62,370 bases of DNA from Rhodospirillaceae bacterium Spongia-Bin9. Its GTDB lineage: Bacteria; Pseudomonadota; Alphaproteobacteria; Bin65. The first letter of the stretch is position 1. Every line of letters begins with the position of its first letter. The stretch is taken from NCBI GenBank assembly GCA_900197615.1, contig FZLR01000005.1, positions 1-62,370 of the forward strand, given 5' to 3'. The notes below the pieces were generated by a model, which did not search any database, was not told where the DNA came from, and saw only the letters and a program-made list of their open reading frames with translations. Positions 55,135-62,370 of this stretch are shown here, piece after piece. Both the position numbers and the translations under genes were made by a program.

Positions 55135-55325
55135 CTCACCCCGGCCGCGTCATCTTCTCCGGACGGACCCAGGCGTCGAACTGTTCCCCGGTCAGCAGGC
55201 CCAGCTTCACGCCGGCCTCCTTGAGGGTCGAGCCGTCGGCATGGGCGGTCTTGGCGATCTTCGCCGCGTTGTCGCAGTCGATATGCGGGTTGAACGCGGT
55301 CAGCGGCATCGGCGAATCGCTCATC
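55135..55325 (-). pseudogene. Duplicated 3' end of fumC (last ~62 codons)
   Basis: This 190-base block repeats the end of fumC (56157-56347) without gaps. The first 110 bases from the stop side differ at about one position; divergence rises toward the other end (DCDNAAK versus GYDNAAK). It encodes [21 protein letters not shown] and ends KMTRPG, but has no catalytic part and opens by chance with an ATG (MSDSPMP), which corresponds to an internal fumC Met. Non-functional remnant of a tandem duplication. Confidence 0.85.
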
Positions 55326-55340
55326 CCCTGTGCCTCCTCT

Positions 55341-55410
55341 CCGGCGCTTCGAGCAATACGCGCGTCCAGTGCCCGCGGATCGCGACGGAGCGCTTTTCGA
55401 TCAGATCCGC
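55341..55410 (-). pseudogene. Remnant of RHH gene 5' end
   Basis: Read on the minus strand, it encodes [23 protein letters not shown], clearly related to codons 2-24 of the RHH gene at 54619-54840 ([23 protein letters not shown]). The start codon is lost and the match breaks off after 24 codons, then runs within 15 bases into the fumC fragment. It marks the junction of a tandem duplication. Confidence 0.75.
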
Positions 55411-55426
55411 AAACGGAAACCTCCCG

Positions 55427-55720
55427 TCACGCCGCGTCGCGCGGGCGGATGGCGCGCAAGGCGTCAGCCTGGTCCCGCGCCGCGATATCGAGTTCGTAGC
55501 GGTCCTGGAGGTTCATCCAGCTTCGGGCGTCGGTGTTGAAATACCGCGCCAGACGCAACGCAGTCTCGGCCGTAATACCGCGGCGGCCGCGGACGATCTC
55601 GGAGATCCGCGCTGGCGTCACGCCGATCGCTTTCGCCAACCCGGTGGCGGACAACGCGCACGGCTCCATGAAGTCGTGTTTGAGAATCTCGCCCGGGTGA
55701 ACCGGCTCCAGTCGGGTCAT
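55427..55720 (-). CDS. higA: HigA-family antitoxin (XRE)
   Basis: Antitoxin of 97 residues, VapI/HigA type: opens EPVHPGEILKHDFMEP and has an XRE HTH (SATGLAKAIGVTPARISEIVRGRRGITAETALRLARYFNTDARSWMNLQ in pieces, about 24-75). ATG at 55720, 22 bases after the HigB stop. Its product should bind the toxin and repress the module's promoter. Confidence 0.9.
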   Translation of the reverse strand: MTRLEPVHPGEILKHDFMEPCALSATGLAKAIGVTPARISEIVRGRRGITAETALRLARYFNTDARSWMNLQDRYELDIAARDQADALRAIRPRDAA

Positions 55721-55742
55721 GTGCCTGCCTCCTCGAACGGCG

Positions 55743-56021
55743 TCAGTGGTAATCGACGATTTCGGCGTCATAGGCGTCTCCGTCCTCGAAGAGGAAGCAG
55801 AGGCGCCATCGATCGTTGATACGGATGCTGTACGAACCTTTGCGGTTGCCCCGCAGCGCCTCGAGTCGATTGCCGGGCGGCGCCCGCAGGAAATCGAGTG
55901 TCGCAGCCGCCTCCAGTTGCGCAAGCTTGCGCTGAGCGACCCGCTCGAACCCGACGAAACGCGACACCCGATAGCCGTTGGCCAACCGTTCCGTGTCCTT
56001 GCAGCGGAAGCTCCGGATCAT
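55743..56021 (-). CDS. higB: HigB-type toxin (RelE superfamily)
   Basis: Type II mRNA-cleaving toxin of 92 residues: MIRSFRCKDTERL opening, RLEALRGNRKGSYSIRINDRWRLCF (in pieces, about 52-76) with the GSYSIRINDRWR motif of HigB, and an acidic end. The toxin gene precedes the antitoxin gene, as in higBA loci. It lies between fumC and the remnant block, so it was part of or inserted into the duplicated segment. Confidence 0.9.
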   Translation of the reverse strand: MIRSFRCKDTERLANGYRVSRFVGFERVAQRKLAQLEAAATLDFLRAPPGNRLEALRGNRKGSYSIRINDRWRLCFLFEDGDAYDAEIVDYH

Positions 56022-56157
56022 ACAGCCTGAATTATCGCATCTCGATATACGAAATCAAGGCAGCCAGGCGAATTGCAGTCCATCGGGCGCCGGCCCGGCC
56101 CCGGTCCCCTCGCTTCGAGGAGGCCGGGCCGGCGGCGCGCAGATGTCCGAAAAATTC

Positions 56158-57558
56158 TCACCCCGGCCGCGTCATCTTCTCCGGACGGACCCAGGCGTCG
56201 AACTGTTCCCCGGTCAGCAGGCCCAGCTTCACGCCGGCCTCCTTGAGGGTCGAGCCGTCGGCGTGGGCGGTCTTGGCGATCTTCGCGGCGTTGTCGTAGC
56301 CGATATGGGGATTGAGCGCAGTCACCAGCATCAGCGAATCGCTCATCAGCCGGTCGATCCGCGCCTCGTTGGCCTCGATGCCGCTCACGCAGTTGTCGGC
56401 GAAGGAGACGCAGGCGTCGGCGATCAGGCGGATCGACTGCAACAGGTTGTGGATAATCACCGGTTTGAACACGTTGAGCTCGAAATGGCCGTTCGAGCCG
56501 GCGACGGTGACCGCGGTGTGGTTGCCGATCACCTGGCAGCACACCATGGTCAGCGCCTCGCACTGGGTCGGGTTGACCTTGCCGGGCATGATCGAGGAGC
56601 CCGGCTCGTTGGCCGGCAGGATCAGCTCGCCGAGGCCGGAGCGCGGGCCCGAGCCGAGGAAGCGGATGTCGTTGGCGATCTTCATCAGCGAAGCCGCCAG
56701 CACGTTCAGCGCTCCCGACGCCTCGACCGCCGCATCGTTCGCCGCCAGCGCCTCGAACTTGTTGCGCGCGGTGCGGAAGCGGAAGCCGGTAATGTCCGAC
56801 ACCCGCGCCGCAAACGCCTTGTCGAACCCCTTCGGCGCGTTGAGGCCGGTGCCGACCGCCGTGCCGCCCTGGGCCAGTTCCGACAGGCGCGGCAGGGTCT
56901 GCTTCACCCGGTCGATGCCGTATTTCATCTGCTGGACATAGCCGGAGAATTCCTGGCCGAGGGTGAGCGGCACGGCATCCTGGGTGTGGGTCCGGCCGAT
57001 CTTGATGACCCGGGCGAAGGCCCGGCGACGCTCGTCCAGCGCGTCGTGCAGGTGCCGGAGCGCCGGCAGCAGCAGCGTCTCGATCCGATCGACCGCCGCA
57101 ATGTGCATGGCGGTCGGGAAGGTGTCGTTGGAGGACTGGCTGCGGTTGACATGGTCGTTCGGATGGACCGGATCCTTCGAGCCGATCTCGCCGCCCATCG
57201 TCTCGATGGCCCGGTTGGCGATCACTTCGTTGGCGTTCATGTTCGTCTGGGTGCCGGAGCCGGTCTGCCACACGACGAGCGGGAAGTGGTCGTCCAGCCT
57301 GCCGTTCATCGTCTCGGTCGCGGCCCCGACGATCGCCTTGCCGATCTTCCTGTCCAGCGCGCCCTGCTCCATGTTCACTTCCGCCGCCGCCCGCTTGAGC
57401 ACGCCGTAGGCATGGATGACCTCGCGCGGCATCCGCTCCTCGCCGATGCGGAAATTGCCGAGCGAGCGCTGGGTCTGCGCGCCCCAATAGCGGTCCGCCG
57501 GCACCCTGACGGCGCCCATCGTGTCGGATTCCGTGCGCATTTCCGGTTTGTCGGCCAT
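56158..57558 (-). CDS. fumC: Fumarate hydratase class II
   Basis: Iron-free fumarase of the TCA cycle, 466 residues, homotetramer. Motifs: WGAQTQRSL near the start, [36 protein letters not shown] and the superfamily signature [11 protein letters not shown] (about 316-326). ATG at 57558. Its 3' end (about 190 bases) is repeated at 55135-55325. Divergent from the Rieske oxygenase gene. Confidence 0.96.
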
Positions 57559-57736
57559 CGTCCTTCGCCCGTGCTGAGGGGGAGCTGGTACGGACAGGAT
57601 GTAACCCGCGCCGCGCCGGCGGTGAACCGGCAGCGGCGACGCATGACGGGCCTGCCCGGACTGTTGGCTTTCCCCGCTTTGACGCCGCCGCGCCTTGGTA
57701 TAGGCTACCGGCAAAATACCTTCCGGAGGGAACGCC

Positions 57737-58813
57737 ATGACGAACATTGCGACGCTGCCGGCCCCGCGCAACGCCTGGTATGTCGGCGCCTGGACCCACG
57801 AAGTGACCGAAAAGCCGCTGGCGCGGACGATTCTGAACCAACCGGTCGTGCTGTTCCGCGGCCCCGACGGCAAGGCGGCGGCGCTGGAAGACCGGTGCAG
57901 CCACCGGGCGACCCCGCTGTCGCTCGGCGAAGTCACCGGGAAGGGCCTGCAATGCGGCTATCACGGCCTCACCTTCAACGGCGACGGCGACTGCGTCTTC
58001 ATCCCCGGCCAGGACAGCATCCCGCCCCAGGCCTGTGTCCGCGCCTTTCCGGTCGTGGAGCGCCAGGGCATCGTCTGGGTGTGGACGGGCGACCCGGAGC
58101 GGATCGAGAATTCGACCCTGGTCGACTGGCCGTGGAACGACGACGCCGAGAACTGGCCCGTCCGCTACGGCCGGATGCACATCAAGTGCAACTACATGCT
58201 GGTCATGGAAAACCTGATGGACCTGACCCACATCCCCTACATCCACCGCAAGACCATCGGCGGCGGCGACCAGGCGGGCCAGGTCAACGCCGAGATGATC
58301 ACGAAGCGGACGGATATGGGCGTCCACTACATCCGCTGGATGGACGGCATCCAGCCGCCGCCGACCTATGTCAAGGCGGCCGGGTTCGCCGACGGCGCGA
58401 AGGTCGACCGCTGGCAGGAATTCGAATATGTCGCGCCGATCACGGTGCTGCAATGGACCGGCGCACTGGAGATCGGCCGGGGCGCGCGGGAGAACCGCGC
58501 CCAGGACGGCGGCTTCCAGCTGCGCATCTATCACGGCGCGACCCCGGAAACCGACACCAGCTGCCATTACTACTTCGCGATCAACAACGGCTGCATGGCG
58601 CGCAGCGAGGCCGACAACGACAAGCTGTTCCAGGAGATCTGGGACACCTTCCTGGAAGACATCGACTTCGTCGAACGGCAGCAGGCCTGCCTGGAGGCCG
58701 ATCCCGAGCGTCCGCTGGTCGATATCAGGCACGACAGCGCGCGCATCCAGGCCCGCCGCAAGATCGAGCGGATGGTCGCGGCCGAAAGCGCGATGGCGGT
58801 GGCGGCCGAATAG
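57737..58813 (+). CDS. Rieske aromatic-ring-hydroxylating/O-demethylating oxygenase (VanA-like)
   Basis: Oxygenase alpha subunit of 358 residues. The Rieske cluster ligands are CSHRATPL (about 55) and CGYHGL (about 75), C-x-H-x17-C-x2-H. The catalytic-domain iron ligands include [10 protein letters not shown] (about 164-173). The layout resembles vanillate O-demethylase VanA and related monooxygenases. A reductase gene (VanB) is not adjacent. GGAGGG ribosome site. O-demethylation could feed the gal pathway, but the substrate is inferred only. Confidence 0.86.
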
Positions 58814-58818
58814 ACCGC

Positions 58819-58881
58819 CTGCCGCCGCGGCAGCGTCCGCTGAAATAACGCCGGACCGGGGGCGGCCTGCCGCCGCGGCAG
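58819..58881. repeat. Twin 15-bp palindromes
   Basis: CTGCCGC-C-GCGGCAG occurs at 58819-58833 and again, identical, at 58867-58881, 48 bases apart. They directly follow the Rieske stop. No T-run follows, so they are not classical terminators but could form stable hairpins in its 3' message. Confidence 0.7.
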
Positions 58882-58910
58882 GGCTGCACCGGCGTTCCGG
58901 GGTTCCGGCA

Positions 58911-58950
58911 TGTCATGAAATGTCATGATTTGTCATGATGTGTCGTGGCG
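58911..58950. repeat. Iterated 10-bp repeat, cluster A (TGTCATGANN x4)
   Basis: Four head-to-tail units with exact 10-base period: TGTCATGAAA, TGTCATGATT, TGTCATGATG and the degenerate TGTCGTGGCG. The core TGTCATGA is one base from the perfect palindrome TGTCATGACA. A 27-base stretch (58911-58937) is identical to cluster C. Confidence 0.9.
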
Positions 58951-58972
58951 ACACCGCGGGCCGCGATAATAC

Positions 58973-58982
58973 AGACCGGTCT
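58973..58982. promoter_or_regulatory. Palindrome AGACCGGTCT (operator-like)
   Basis: Perfect 10-base palindrome in AT-rich surroundings (GATAATAC before, ATATTTTG after). The core resembles operators of TetR-family regulators of the NemR type (AGACC...GGTCT), an established motif class, but no tetR gene is adjacent. Confidence 0.35.
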
Positions 58983-59177
58983 ATATTTTGCATTTTTTTG
59001 CCATAGGGCTGGTGCCATTTTCCTCCATTTTCGGCGCGGAATCCGCAGAAATCTGCCATTCCCGCTCTGACGGCTGCGAACCGGCGAGGGCCGGTTGTGT
59101 GTATAATTTCCCAGGCCTTCCGCATCGGACGGCCGCGCTGCCGCCGCAGCTGCGCCGGAGGGGTGCTTTCGGGCAGG

Positions 59178-59220
59178 CGTCATGAACAGGCGTCATGACA
59201 TATCATGGATTGTCGTGTCC
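59178..59220. repeat. Iterated 10-bp repeat, cluster B
   Basis: CGTCATGAAC (59178-59187), a 3-base gap, then three units in a 10-base period: CGTCATGACA, TATCATGGAT, TGTCGTGTCC (59191-59220). A degenerate version of cluster A. Confidence 0.75.
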
Positions 59221-59251
59221 GGCTTCCAGGTCGCCCCGTCTGCCGACATTC

Positions 59252-59371
59252 GTCATTCCGACCGGAGCGGACGCCAGTCCGCGAAGCGGAGGAATCTCGT
59301 TGCAGGACTCCTGTGCCCGTTCGATGGATCGAGCCGGGATCCCTCCACTCGCTTCGCTCGGTCGTGATGAC
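59252..59371. repeat. 120-bp palindromic interspersed repeat (copy 3)
   Basis: Starts GTCATTCCGACCGGAGCGG, ends CGGTCGTGATGAC; inner GCGGAGGAATCTC pairs loosely with GGGATCCCTCC. Same length and ends as the copy at 37699. It sits between clusters B and C. Confidence 0.75.
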
Positions 59372-59390
59372 GGGACAAGGTATTCGCAGA

Positions 59391-59420
59391 TGTCATGAAA
59401 TGTCATGATTTGTCATGTTC
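59391..59420. repeat. Iterated 10-bp repeat, cluster C (TGTCATGANN x3)
   Basis: TGTCATGAAA, TGTCATGATT, TGTCATGTTC with exact 10-base period. Its first 27 bases repeat cluster A, 480 bases away, in the same orientation. Confidence 0.9.
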
Positions 59421-59603
59421 GCTCCCTTCCGGCCCGGCCCCTCGCTATGACAGACCGGTTCGGGCACCGTGTTTTTTTCGCACCCGATCCGCCTGTCCGG
59501 GGCAGGGCAAAACGCCGGGCCGGCCGCCGCCCCGTTGTCGATGCCGCCGGTTTGTCGAAGATGGCCGTCCCCGGCGGCCGGCGCCTGCCGAAGATACAGG
59601 TTT

Positions 59604-59618
59604 GTTCATATAATGTTC
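59604..59618 (+). promoter_or_regulatory. Alphaproteobacterial-type LexA (SOS) box over a TATAAT
   Basis: GTTC-ATATAAT-GTTC: the direct repeat GTTC-N7-GTTC is the LexA operator of many alphaproteobacteria (established for Rhizobium, Rhodobacter and Caulobacter). The spacer includes TATAAT (59609-59614), as in true SOS promoters. No gene is obvious to the right; an Arg-rich 46-codon frame begins at 59627 and FkbM lies antisense. Confidence 0.5.
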
Positions 59619-59812
59619 CTGTGCGGATGTCAAGCCCATGCGCGCGGCGCCCCCGTCCGGGTTCCGGCCCGGGGAGTCCTCTGCTAAAGGGGCAGGGCCG
59701 CGCGCGCTGGGAACGGGTGCGCTGCGGCGCGGGGCCGGAAGGCGGGGCGGACAAGGCCTCAATTTAGGATTCCATGTCGAGAAACGGGGTGGTGTACAAC
59801 CTGCCCGGCAAG

Positions 59813-60634
59813 TTACTCCGGCAATTCCGGCAAGCCGCCGTCGCGCGTTCCGTAGGTCAGTATCCGGCCGCGCTCGCGCGTGCGCACCGTGAATCCGGCG
59901 TCTCGCAGCAACGCCTCGCAAGCGGCCGATGTTCTCCCGCCACGGCGCTCGGGCCCGGTATCGAGGGCGATGCGCGCGGTCCGCCGGAGCAGTTCCCGCC
60001 CTCCTTCCAGCACTTCCGGTTCCGCGCCTTCGGCATCGCATTTGAGGAAGGCGAGCCCGTCGATCCCGTGGTCCCCGGCGATCCGGTCCAGGGTCGTGGC
60101 GCGGCGGCGAATGGTGCCAGTCGTCATTTCGGGGACATCAGCGCCGAAAATCGAACTGTCCGCTTTCGAAGCGGCAAAAGTGAAAGTCAGTTCTTCCTCG
60201 GCGTTCCAGACCAGCGCATCGATCACGGTTACGGATTCCCGGCCCGCCAGATTCCGTCTGAAGCAGGCGAGGGCGTCAGGATCGGGTTCGACGGCGTAGA
60301 CGGCCCGTCCCCGGTTCAGCGCCAGGAGAGCAAACTCCCCGACATGCGCACCGACATCGAGAACCGGACCGGGCGGCGGGTCGAGAGCGGTGAACAGGTA
60401 CTGGCGGTCGAGCAGGCGCAGGCGGGCGGCCAAGCCTTTTTTGTACTGTCGCCAACTTACGGGCGATACGCGAAACACCGACCCGTCGCCGGCCGCGATA
60501 CGGCAATAGCCGTCGACATCGCGCAATTGCAACGGCACGCGCCTCTGATATCCGATTGCGGCCTTCAGTCGATGCAAGGCGAATTTGAACCGCTCCGCCC
60601 GGCGCAACCCTCTCGCATCTTTGTGAACCGTCAT
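59813..60634 (-). CDS. FkbM-family methyltransferase
   Basis: SAM-dependent methyltransferase of 273 residues. The SAM site is VLDVGAHVGEFALLA (about 91-105) with EPDPDALACFRRNL, and the FkbM hallmark FLKCDAEGAEPEVLEG (about 203-218). Members methylate sugars or polyketides; with a GT61 gene and a GT4 remnant beside it, a surface-polysaccharide role is likely. ATG at 60634. Divergent from the remnant and GT61. Confidence 0.86.
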   Translation of the reverse strand: MTVHKDARGLRRAERFKFALHRLKAAIGYQRRVPLQLRDVDGYCRIAAGDGSVFRVSPVSWRQYKKGLAARLRLLDRQYLFTALDPPPGPVLDVGAHVGEFALLALNRGRAVYAVEPDPDALACFRRNLAGRESVTVIDALVWNAEEELTFTFAASKADSSIFGADVPEMTTGTIRRRATTLDRIAGDHGIDGLAFLKCDAEGAEPEVLEGGRELLRRTARIALDTGPERRGGRTSAACEALLRDAGFTVRTRERGRILTYGTRDGGLPELPE

Positions 60635-60678
60635 GTATTCCCCACCGATTCAGGACGGGCCCTCCTAGAAACGCTGTT

Positions 60679-60825
60679 ATGGCCCATATCACGATTCCGA
60701 TTCCGAATCTCGGCGGCGGCGGGGCGAAGCGGACGGCGCTCAAAACCGCCGGTGGGCTGGCAGCCGGCGGTCTTCGCGCTACTCTCGGCCAACACCTTCC
60801 CGGACCGCGCCTAGGACGGCCGTGA
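60679..60825 (+). pseudogene. Remnant of a GT4-type glycosyltransferase (5' end)
   Basis: The frame encodes MAHITIPIPNLGGGGAKRTA, then LKTAGGLAAGGLRATL, closely resembling the N-terminus of family-4 glycosyltransferases (LGGGGAERVALNLANGLAARGH-type), then stops after 48 codons; the following 56 bases show no continuation before GT61. It is a truncated gene start left in the FkbM-GT61 spacer. Recognition is by motif only. Confidence 0.5.
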
Positions 60826-60881
60826 TACTTGAATACGGCCACCAAGCCGGCTGACACCGGTCAAGCTCAACGGAGCCTCCG

Positions 60882-62078
60882 ATGCGATATGCGCCGCGCT
60901 GGCGTGTCTTCATTCCGACAAGCCGGCAACTTCGCTTCGCGGCAACGCAACGGCTTGAGCGGGTGGCGCCCGGCCTGTGTCCGATCATCTCGCTGAGCAC
61001 CCGAGATGCCGATTTCGACGCAATGGCGGCGCACGGTCCCTTCACCATCGTTGAAGCAGCCGAAACGCCCTTCCCGCCCAAGTGGATGGCACGATTCGAC
61101 TTGGACTTTGCATCGGAACTCCAACGCGACGGACTCGTACCGGCAGCTTCCGAACTCGAATTGCAGTTCGCCTTGTTCGAGGACGCCTGGGTGTTCGGCC
61201 ACACCGGGCAGGTCGTCGACGCCCGCACCAACCGGTCGATCAGGCCGGTGAACAGGGGCTCCGCTGTTCCGGGCATTCTTTCGGCTCGGCAGCTCGACGG
61301 GATCGCATTCAGCCTCCTGACCGGTGTTCCAGGGAAACGAAGAAACTACTATCACTTCCTGATGGAGAAGCTGCCCGAGCATCTTGCAGCGCTGCAGGCT
61401 GCGGTAACTGCGTTTGGCCGGCTCACACTGTTGCTGCCGGCGACCGACCACCCGCTCGAAGCCGCGCTGGTGTCGGAGGCCCGGCGGCGTTTCCCCGATC
61501 TCCCGGTCCGCCGGGTCCGCACGTCCGAAAAGCTGCGGTGCGAGGCCGTCGTATTCCATCGCGTCGAGCGGTCGAGCATTTTTCGCACGCCGGCAAGCAG
61601 GCGCCTCCTGTCGATGCCGGTCGATGCGATGCGTCATTCCCTGCAGGTCTTTCCACCTACCGAAAGGACGCGGCGCCTGTTCGTCTCGCGAGCCGACGCC
61701 CGAAAACCCCGCCTCCTGAACGAGGACGAGGTGTTCGCGCGGATCGAGCGTTTCGGTTTCGAGCGCGTGACGCCGGGGCGCCTCCCGCTCGCCGAGCAGG
61801 TTGCACTGTTTTCTGGGGCGCAGGCCGTAGCCGGTCCGCACGGCGCGGGGATGACCAACCTCGTCTTCATGCCGGAAGGCGGCGCGGTGATAGAGATATT
61901 CGGCCGGAGCCTTGCGCACGGCGCCTATGCCTGGCTCTCCCATCTTGGCGGGTGCGCCTACGGGTATGTCGTTTCGGACGAGACCGTGGAACGACTCGAC
62001 TACAGGCTGACGGGCGCGGCGCTCGACGTCTTCGAGCGCGAGGTCGAGGCGGCCGTGGAGCGAATATCGCCGCGATAG
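60882..62078 (+). CDS. Glycosyltransferase family 61 protein
   Basis: DUF563/GT61 glycosyltransferase of 398 residues. The C-terminal half (about 200-395) holds the family motifs: RLFVSRADARKPRLLNEDEV, a helix rich in FERVTPGRLPLAEQVALF and the diagnostic GPHGAGMTNLVFMPEG (about 318-333). The N-terminal half is less conserved. It lacks a signal peptide or membrane segment. Likely adds a sugar to a capsule or LPS, inferred from the neighbouring FkbM gene. ATG at 60882 with GGAG upstream. Confidence 0.87.
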   Translation: MRYAPRWRVFIPTSRQLRFAATQRLERVAPGLCPIISLSTRDADFDAMAAHGPFTIVEAAETPFPPKWMARFDLDFASELQRDGLVPAASELELQFALFEDAWVFGHTGQVVDARTNRSIRPVNRGSAVPGILSARQLDGIAFSLLTGVPGKRRNYYHFLMEKLPEHLAALQAAVTAFGRLTLLLPATDHPLEAALVSEARRRFPDLPVRRVRTSEKLRCEAVVFHRVERSSIFRTPASRRLLSMPVDAMRHSLQVFPPTERTRRLFVSRADARKPRLLNEDEVFARIERFGFERVTPGRLPLAEQVALFSGAQAVAGPHGAGMTNLVFMPEGGAVIEIFGRSLAHGAYAWLSHLGGCAYGYVVSDETVERLDYRLTGAALDVFEREVEAAVERISPR

Positions 62079-62099
62079 CCCCCGCCCCATCCGGAGAAG

Positions 62100-62175
62100 T
62101 GGCGCCCCCAAGGGGAATCGAACCCCTGTTTCCGGCGTGAGAGGCCGGCGTCCTAGGCCGCTAGACGATGGGGGC
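62100..62175 (-). tRNA. tRNA-Glu (CTC)
   Basis: Read on the minus strand: acceptor GCCCCCA pairs with TGGGGGC, discriminator G, CCA encoded (62100-62102). The D-arm is GTCTAGCGGCCTAGGAC, the anticodon stem CCGGC/GCCGG with loop CTCTCAC (anticodon CTC) and the T-arm AGGGGTTCGATTCCCCT. All stems pair, total 76 bases. Confidence 0.95.
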
Positions 62176-62240
62176 GCAGTGCGGGGAAAGGCACCTGACG
62201 GTGGACGGGGAGCGATAGCGCAGCGCGCGGCGTGCGGCAA

Positions 62241-62285
62241 GTCCCCCGCTTCCCGGTCCCCCGCTGCCCGGTCCCCCGCATGGCG
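62241..62285. repeat. 15-bp tandem repeat (3 units)
   Basis: GTCCCCCGCTTCCCG, GTCCCCCGCTGCCCG and the degenerate GTCCCCCGCATGGCG lie head to tail just upstream (promoter side) of the tRNA gene. Only one base separates the first two units. Confidence 0.7.
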
Positions 62286-62316
62286 AGCACGCGGCCCGGC
62301 AGGTCCCGCCGCCCGC

Positions 62317-62370
62317 TCAGCGCTGCGCCGTCTCCCAGCCCGCCGCCGTCCAGGCCGGGGCGGCCGAGGG
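62317..62370 (-). CDS. Possible 3' end of an unidentified gene
   Basis: On the minus strand an open frame enters at the window edge and ends with TGA at 62317-62319, encoding PSAAPAWTAAGWETAQR. Its Trp-rich tail looks like a protein C-terminus, but 17 residues are too few to identify it. Confidence 0.25.
   Translation of the reverse strand, partial: PSAAPAWTAAGWETAQR

Follow-up and report, generated by a model that had tools for sequence, protein, structure and literature searches.

Phased 10-bp repeat arrays dispersed over alphaproteobacterial chromosomes are candidate DNA sites of a chromosomal TerS-like protein family

Introduction

Several described systems pair a protein with short repeated DNA sites. 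In REP/RAYT systems, a protein gene has an adjoining repeat and many solo repeats lie between genes; the protein is a Y1 transposase and the repeat unit is a hairpin. Phage satellites such as SaPIs carry their own small terminase (TerS). Tandem direct repeats about one turn apart are read by an oligomer in the case of MraZ or PhoB/OmpR, and the period of the Pho box is 11. Small terminases are familiar from viruses, in which they find a site on the viral genome. In the TerS ring of SPP1-like phages and SF6, adjacent HTHs are spaced by roughly one B-DNA turn, and DNA has been proposed to wrap around the ring (PMC4737164, accessible text).

The system described here shares with phage TerS/pac (SPP1/SF6, PF03592) an N-terminal HTH of the same family and repeats in or beside the gene, and its array period of 10 bp compares with the spacing of about one DNA turn given for the SF6 ring HTHs in the accessible text of PMC4737164. 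In contrast to the phage system, the TerS-like gene is chromosomal, multicopy and away from a large terminase at the loci read, the sites are dispersed over the chromosome, and 10-bp arrays were absent at eight phage TerS genes. As in REP/RAYT, a gene, an adjoining repeat and many intergenic solo repeats occur together, but the protein is TerS-like (PF03592) rather than a Y1 transposase, and the unit is a phased direct repeat rather than a hairpin. The system also resembles SaPI-type satellites in having a chromosomal TerS and, presumably, a dedicated site for it, although no integrase or island was seen at the loci read, Terminase_3 was absent from 14 of 14 genomes and Terminase_6N was absent from the genome studied here (G000). 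Finally, tandem direct repeats about one turn apart, presumably read by an oligomer, are a feature in common with MraZ or PhoB/OmpR, but the motif and the protein family are different and the arrays are not limited to one type of operon or regulon. The TerS domain, the LexA box and dispersed repeats are each known singly; as far as our searches reach, the pairing of chromosomal TerS-like genes with dispersed, genus-specific phased arrays is not known. No such system was found in the titles and abstract beginnings of the papers listed by text searches of an open-access library, which is weak evidence of absence.

Results

Phased arrays in the window

The window, the whole stretch of 62,370 nucleotides analysed, belongs to genome G000 (4.06 Mb, 316 contigs; genomes are numbered G and loci L below). 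As the earlier note had described, it contains a gene-free region between convergent genes: a codon-score heuristic gene caller found no gene in 58814-59812, which is flanked on the left by a Rieske/vanillate-demethylase-type oxygenase gene (57737-58813, + strand) and on the right by an FkbM-type methyltransferase gene (59813-60634, - strand). Array A (58911-58950, + strand) consists of four units in 10-bp register, the fourth degenerate (TGTCATGAAA TGTCATGATT TGTCATGATG TGTCGTGGCG), and array C (59391-59420, + strand) of three units in exact 10-bp register (TGTCATGAAA TGTCATGATT TGTCATGTTC); the repeated unit of both is TGTCATG. Array B (59191-59220, + strand) has three degenerate units, also in 10-bp register (CGTCATGACA TATCATGGAT TGTCGTGTCC). 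The exact 10-base periodicity first claimed for all three clusters was confirmed on the sequence for A and C, but in B it is confined to 59191-59220; an out-of-phase unit copy at 59174-59185 lies 13 bp, not 10, from the next array B unit. Likewise, an identical stretch in A and C does exist, and its length is 28 bases (58910-58937 = 59390-59417), not the 27 claimed. In total, nine matches to TGTCATGANNTGTCATGA (three or fewer mismatches) were found in the window, against 0.16 expected, and none of 100 shuffles reached nine.

Further repeated elements surround the arrays. A LexA-like box by motif match, GAAC-N7-GAAC on the - strand (GTTC-N7-GTTC on the + strand), lies at 59604-59618 and is referred to as module Z; with three or fewer mismatches, the extended motif matches at 23 places in the genome, this one included. 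A possible -35 element by sequence, CTTGAC, is located at 59629-59634 on the - strand, and GTCAAG is also present 10-12 bp from the LexA-like box in other aligned copies of module Z. A promoter at 59604-59634, as predicted from these motifs, would read toward array C, and might drive a hidden RNA such as the earlier note had considered. A diverged intergenic repeat (59252-59373, boundaries set by eye, no strand assigned), which starts with GTCATTCCGACCGGAGC and ends near ATGACGG, also adjoins arrays elsewhere in the window genome. Module Y, ACAGACCGGTCTATA with the palindromic core AGACCGGTCT, is present at 58971-58985 (+ strand), with a second, diverged copy at 59450-59475 (+ strand). The AGACCGGTCT core followed by a run of T occurs near arrays at 12 places in the genome, and by its appearance module Y looks like a regulator site.

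A known RNA family was considered as the source of the arrays and rejected, as only a tRNA (62103-62175) reached the cut-off in 56000-62370. Upstream in the window (55135-56347), two genes lie between fumC (56158-57558) and a second copy of the fumC 3' end. One gene (55743-56021) encodes a HigB-like toxin, and the other (55427-55720) is HTH antitoxin-like. The copied gene end is 191 nt long, is 94% identical and carries the FumaraseC_C domain. It looks as if a HigB-like module had inserted at fumC and the gene end had been repaired by a copy.

Dispersal and form of the arrays

In G000, the array pattern has 82 matches on 33 contigs (two or fewer mismatches) and the reversed pattern has none; a single local centromere or origin, which the earlier note had considered, does not agree with this dispersal. 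When 31 genomes were searched with one mismatch allowed, six of the seven genomes of the genus, G000 included, had 49-71 matches each, and G006 of the same genus had one. At this threshold no array match was found in four of four sister-genus genomes, and the other 20 genomes had one match in G025 and none in the rest. In addition, exact three-unit arrays were found in at least 114 stretches of species genomes; 108 of those listed are in alphaproteobacterial MAGs, many of the listed stretches being from the same few genomes. The array-bearing MAGs fall into two groups, lineage 1 (the window genus) and lineage 2 (other MAGs). The assignment was made by hand on the basis of the record names; L165 comes from a lineage-2 MAG but was counted in lineage 1 on account of its match to L024. 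The lineage-2 genomes G031-G037 have 40-138 three-unit matches each (three or fewer mismatches), again with none for the reversed pattern. G005 and G038 are one genome, with the same contig places, and some of the array-rich bins are presumably sponge symbionts. By the earlier note's own condition, a specific binding function would be unlikely if arrays stood at hundreds of loci with no phase constraint or were absent from all close relatives. The results do not refute such a function: we found dozens of loci with the 10-bp phase kept, and close relatives have arrays.

The form of the arrays was compared in a set of 268, from which the duplicates L001-L008 and the non-alphaproteobacterial loci L062, L068, L086, L116 and L122 had been removed. 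Three units are present in 151 arrays, two in 59, four in 51 and five in five, and the two longest arrays (9 and 14 units) belong to one planctomycete locus. Removal of L047, L069 and L153 as well left 263 arrays for the counts of flanks, follow-on bases, small frames, spacing and TerS homology. Among adjacent exact units up to 40 bp apart, the spacing is 10 in 377 of 399 and never 9 or 11, a count made on 238 of the 263 arrays (those with less than 300 bp on the 3' side were dropped) and on loci mostly picked by a 10-bp pattern. Three-unit arrays (63 of lineage 1 and 77 of lineage 2) have AAA after unit 1. After unit 2, lineage 2 has TTT, and lineage 1 has A or T and then two T; the palindrome TGTCATGACA, to which the motif had been likened, is not the conserved unit, since AAA follows unit 1 and mostly T follows unit 2. 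The conservation of the unit itself is inflated by the search patterns used. Moreover, arrays within one locus are non-independent, and therefore array-level counts overstate the number of events.

With the heuristic caller, 267 of the 268 arrays lie outside called genes. Every orientation of the neighbouring genes is represented, and among the listed matches the strand polarity of the arrays is mixed on some contigs. When orthologous pairs were aligned, the gene-nearest array was kept in five of six, with non-homologous sequence beyond it; the exception was L014/L163, in which the first arrays fail to align. At L097 (bin65), the genes that flank two arrays in G000 (L025, L030) flank one array region, which suggests rearrangement at these repeats. 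Two simple sources of the arrays were rejected. A signal for one gene type does not agree with neighbours that are diverse metabolic genes with no dominant orientation. One long conserved transposon does not agree with the patchy similarity 3' of the arrays in an all-against-all comparison (81% over 275 nt for L025/L030, about 60-75% for most), nor with modules Y and Z at variable spacing and unconserved intervening sequence, and no element boundary was found.

TerS-like genes beside the arrays

Reverse-strand frames that end in arrays, together with recurrent neighbours, led to small-terminase HTH proteins. All three such proteins scanned match PF03592 (L022, E 5.1e-10; L158, E 1.4e-12; L053, E 5e-6), and all three have the N-terminal Terminase_2 HTH domain expected of phage TerS. 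A profile compared with solved structures matched the SF6 small terminase (4zc3, 2cmp, 3zqp; E 1.2e-5 to 5e-5). A single-chain AlphaFold model (226 residues, pLDDT 67.7) is confident in the HTH part and not in the rest; a Foldseek search with it gave SF6 TerS chains as the first four rows (E 0.06-0.33) and no match at E 0.001. The earlier note's reading of the clusters as repeated sites, in phase with the helix, on which a DNA-binding protein would act cooperatively is supported, and on these sequence comparisons the TerS-like (PF03592) proteins are a candidate family for it.

A profile search of both sides and both strands detected TerS homology beside 14 of the 263 arrays (13 loci), and in every case it was antisense and 3' of the array; another match is the L158 gene viewed from an opposite-strand array. 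For the other 249 arrays, no TerS homology was found within 1.3 kb, and the TerS profile search around arrays found none beside those of the window. No other gene family recurs in a fixed place and orientation beside arrays. Most simply, the window arrays would be solo remnants of elements made of a TerS gene plus an array.

At 17 of 25 loci, the TerS gene ends inside an array: in 16 an array unit supplies the TGA stop codon, and in L187 the stop falls in CCTGAC units. At L195 the array is 18 bp beyond the stop, so that stop and array coincide or lie no more than 18 bp apart at 18 of 25 loci, which is the pac-site arrangement of repeats in or adjoining terS. The array is 107-555 bp from the TerS stop at L173, L175 and L184, and no array was found near the stop at L174, L176, L177 and L196 (for L176 within 174 bp of downstream sequence). 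The association was also scored with an array test, in which three units of 10-bp period near a stop were compared over 7 columns and a score of 6 or more was counted. All nine lineage-2 genes scored 6 or 7, and the test was positive for 7 of 17 genes in lineage 1 and 5 of 9 in the sister genera. In contrast, none of eight phage TerS genes was positive (best score 4). Elsewhere in the class, 22 TerS-like loci in 18 genomes likewise scored 4 at best; up to 11 candidates per genome were scored for this set, and L273-L275 had been dropped for want of a tblastn hit (22 of 25 kept). Among 61 window genes, one scored 6 or more, namely the oxygenase gene beside array A. Of 96 gene ends at other loci, 11 were positive: seven TerS genes, three convergent neighbours that share an array with a TerS gene, and one unexplained frame at L190.

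The recognition helix reads SARQTG or SARQSG in 25 of the 26 lineage-1 and lineage-2 proteins; the exception, L205, carries a deletion at that position. In lineage 2, small reverse-strand frames with strong ribosome-binding sites also end in the array, for example at L127, L134, L058 and L060; they have shared starts (MTATDPRP..., MPKTRRR...), and for most of them the codon score is negative. Nine TerS-like genes are also present in G113, which belongs to a different family of the class, and no 10-bp array was found in the seven copies examined.

Two TerS subfamilies were distinguished in lineage 1. Subfamily (i) adjoins mnmG by Pfam match, with mnmE on the other side in L173, and its flanks match between species. 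Four of five subfamily (i) loci have mnmG-like frames and a perfect parS sequence. At L022/L173 (G000 contig 166), a perfect TGTTTCACGTGAAACA, which we take to be the parS consensus, lies between the TerS-like gene and mnmG. GAAC-N7-GAAC stands upstream of the HTH in eight of nine subfamily (ii) loci with upstream sequence and in none of five subfamily (i) loci, a count made without L186, L189 and L197, which are cut at their 5' ends. The GTTC-N7-GTTC direct repeat is given as the alphaproteobacterial LexA motif in the accessible texts of PMC3323433 and PMC8565304, and module Z of the window (59604-59618) fits this pattern. Among the 238 arrays with at least 300 bp on the 3' side, 50 of 114 in lineage 1 have a LexA motif no more than 450 bp away on that side and 2 of 114 have one on the 5' side; in lineage 2, 2 of 124 arrays have one on the 3' side. 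These motif matches point to possible LexA control of subfamily (ii) and of array elements.

Co-distribution and sister-genus arrays

TerS-like matches were found in every array-rich genome (G000-G005, G031-G038), and none was found in G006 and G039, which have one array match each. G000 has three (two genes and a fragment); with fragments and split pieces counted, there are five in G001, three in G002, four each in G003 and G004, and eight in G005. G031-G037 have 4-17 each, many of them partial, and those of G033 are partial only. Diverged TerS-like genes are present in the sister genera (one in G007, three in G008, six in G009 and three in G010), and G011 and G017 have one weak match each.

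At five of the nine sister-genus loci tested (G008-G010; sister genus g3), the TerS 3' end carries a different 10-bp array: AAAGCCAA in L191, L192 and L181, TGTTGACG in L199 and AAAGTAGG in L200. No 10-bp array was found at the TerS 3' end of L178, L179, L190 and L198. Pairs of AAAGCCAA (one or no mismatch) number 87 in G008 and 41 in G010, with none for the reversed pattern there, and none was found in G000, G006, G007, G009 or G031. AAAGTAGG is not dispersed, having four matches at two loci of G010. In G007 and G009, TerS-like genes are present and arrays were not found. The recognition helix is NAAPYG in L191 and L192 and differs again in L199 and L200. That a sister genus with diverged TerS proteins has a different array motif lends support to the candidate protein. 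However, L181 has a AAAGCCAA array and a third helix unlike that of L191/L192, which breaks a one-to-one match of helix and array; its array may be a chance neighbour, because it resembles the two-orientation solo layout of that genus. On contigs 148, 200, 219, 256 and 308 of G008, AAAGCCAA units in minus/plus/minus order have constant spacing, like copies of a small element.

Discussion

We consider it likely, judging from sequence comparison, that the clusters of the window are DNA sites of a chromosomal TerS-like (PF03592) HTH family, present as solo copies; that the protein binds the arrays and acts there is what we infer. The one-turn spacing of HTHs in the SF6 ring fits the 10-bp array period, and by this analogy a three- or four-unit array could be what a ring-forming TerS reads. 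A TerS-like oligomer, probably a ring as in phage SF6/SPP1, would form on the array, and successive HTHs would dock on successive units, one DNA turn apart. The window arrays, as putative remnants of TerS-plus-array elements, may still be bound in trans, and the array C remnant appears to carry a LexA-box promoter-like stretch that would face the array. Specific reading of the arrays is put forward as a hypothesis, because the isolated SF6 domain was reported to have little sequence specificity in DNA binding (PMC4737164, accessible text).

The role of the protein is the least certain part. We think that a domesticated, partly damage-regulated chromosome-binding protein is more likely than active DNA packaging, and such a role fits the vertical copies and the mnmG/parS-side gene. 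The TerS system would be dispensable in the genus, because it is absent from G006. More specifically, and tentatively, it is possible that partly damage-regulated rings of a domesticated TerS clamp tens to more than 100 phased arrays, either to organise the nucleoid from the mnmG/parS-side copy or to mark the chromosome for capture by passing capsids, and that helix and array change together between genera.

Alternatively, the arrays may be a selfish dispersed repeat, in which a TerS gene plus array spreads or recombines and decays to functionless solo arrays. Solo arrays far outnumber TerS genes, many copies lie at contig ends, and the intergenic content past the array differs between species in the aligned pairs. 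Decay also occurs, since L012 has an array and TerS fragments where L158 has an intact frame. However, retention of the gene-side array in five of six orthologous pairs, with the rest changed, argues against a mere repeat, as does the finding of neither an element boundary nor a mobilising enzyme at the loci, and we regard this alternative as somewhat doubtful.

Pac-like packaging appears unlikely. Here the arrays would be start points for a helper phage or a gene-transfer particle, each array a selfish transfer origin, with LexA tying the system to induction. The TerS domain is indeed present (PF03592, SF6 chains), GAAC-N7-GAAC is upstream of eight of nine subfamily (ii) genes tested, and the array is in or beside terS, much as the SPP1 pac site extends over the beginning of the small terminase gene (PMC4737164, accessible text). 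Nevertheless, a search for large terminases with the families Terminase_3 and Terminase_6N found the Terminase_3 large subunit in none of 14 genomes and Terminase_6N in four of nine (among them G005, marginally, G010 and G032); Terminase_6N was missing from four of seven array-bearing genomes searched, including G000. Furthermore, several TerS loci have flanks common to species and are thus vertical, and the eight phage TerS genes lack a 10-bp array. According to the accessible part of PMC6854486, the small terminase of a known gene-transfer agent lacks the N-terminal DNA-binding domain, and packaging sites of such agents are not known. Resident packaging is weakened because Terminase_3 was found in none of the 14 genomes and Terminase_6N is absent from the window genome.

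It is very improbable that another DNA-binding protein, such as an OmpR/PhoB-type regulator, reads head-to-tail TGTCAT half-sites and that TerS is simply a frequent neighbour. The half-site does recall the Pho box, but the array period is 10, not the 11 of the Pho box, the TerS stop lies inside the array at 17 of 25 loci, and the array motif differs where TerS has diverged. A translation-stop cassette, in which three 10-bp units give TGA in all reverse-strand frames, can practically be dismissed: the modal size of three (151 of 268 arrays) and the ending of TerS and other small frames in arrays would suit it, but it is weakened because the sister-genus arrays AAAGCCAA and AAAGTAGG have no TGA in the repeated unit, and all seven TGTCATG bases, not TGA alone, are conserved in lineage 1 (a conservation inflated by how arrays were selected).

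With the arrays read as sites of a TerS-like protein, the link between a small-terminase domain and tens or more than 100 chromosomal sites rests on position, orientation, distribution and a motif specific to the genus. If the binding is true, a three-unit TerS site with one-turn spacing would exist in nature, and would offer a direct test of the proposed DNA wrapping around the ring. It would also raise the question of whether packaging proteins have been put to new use by cells in organising, protecting or exporting the chromosome.
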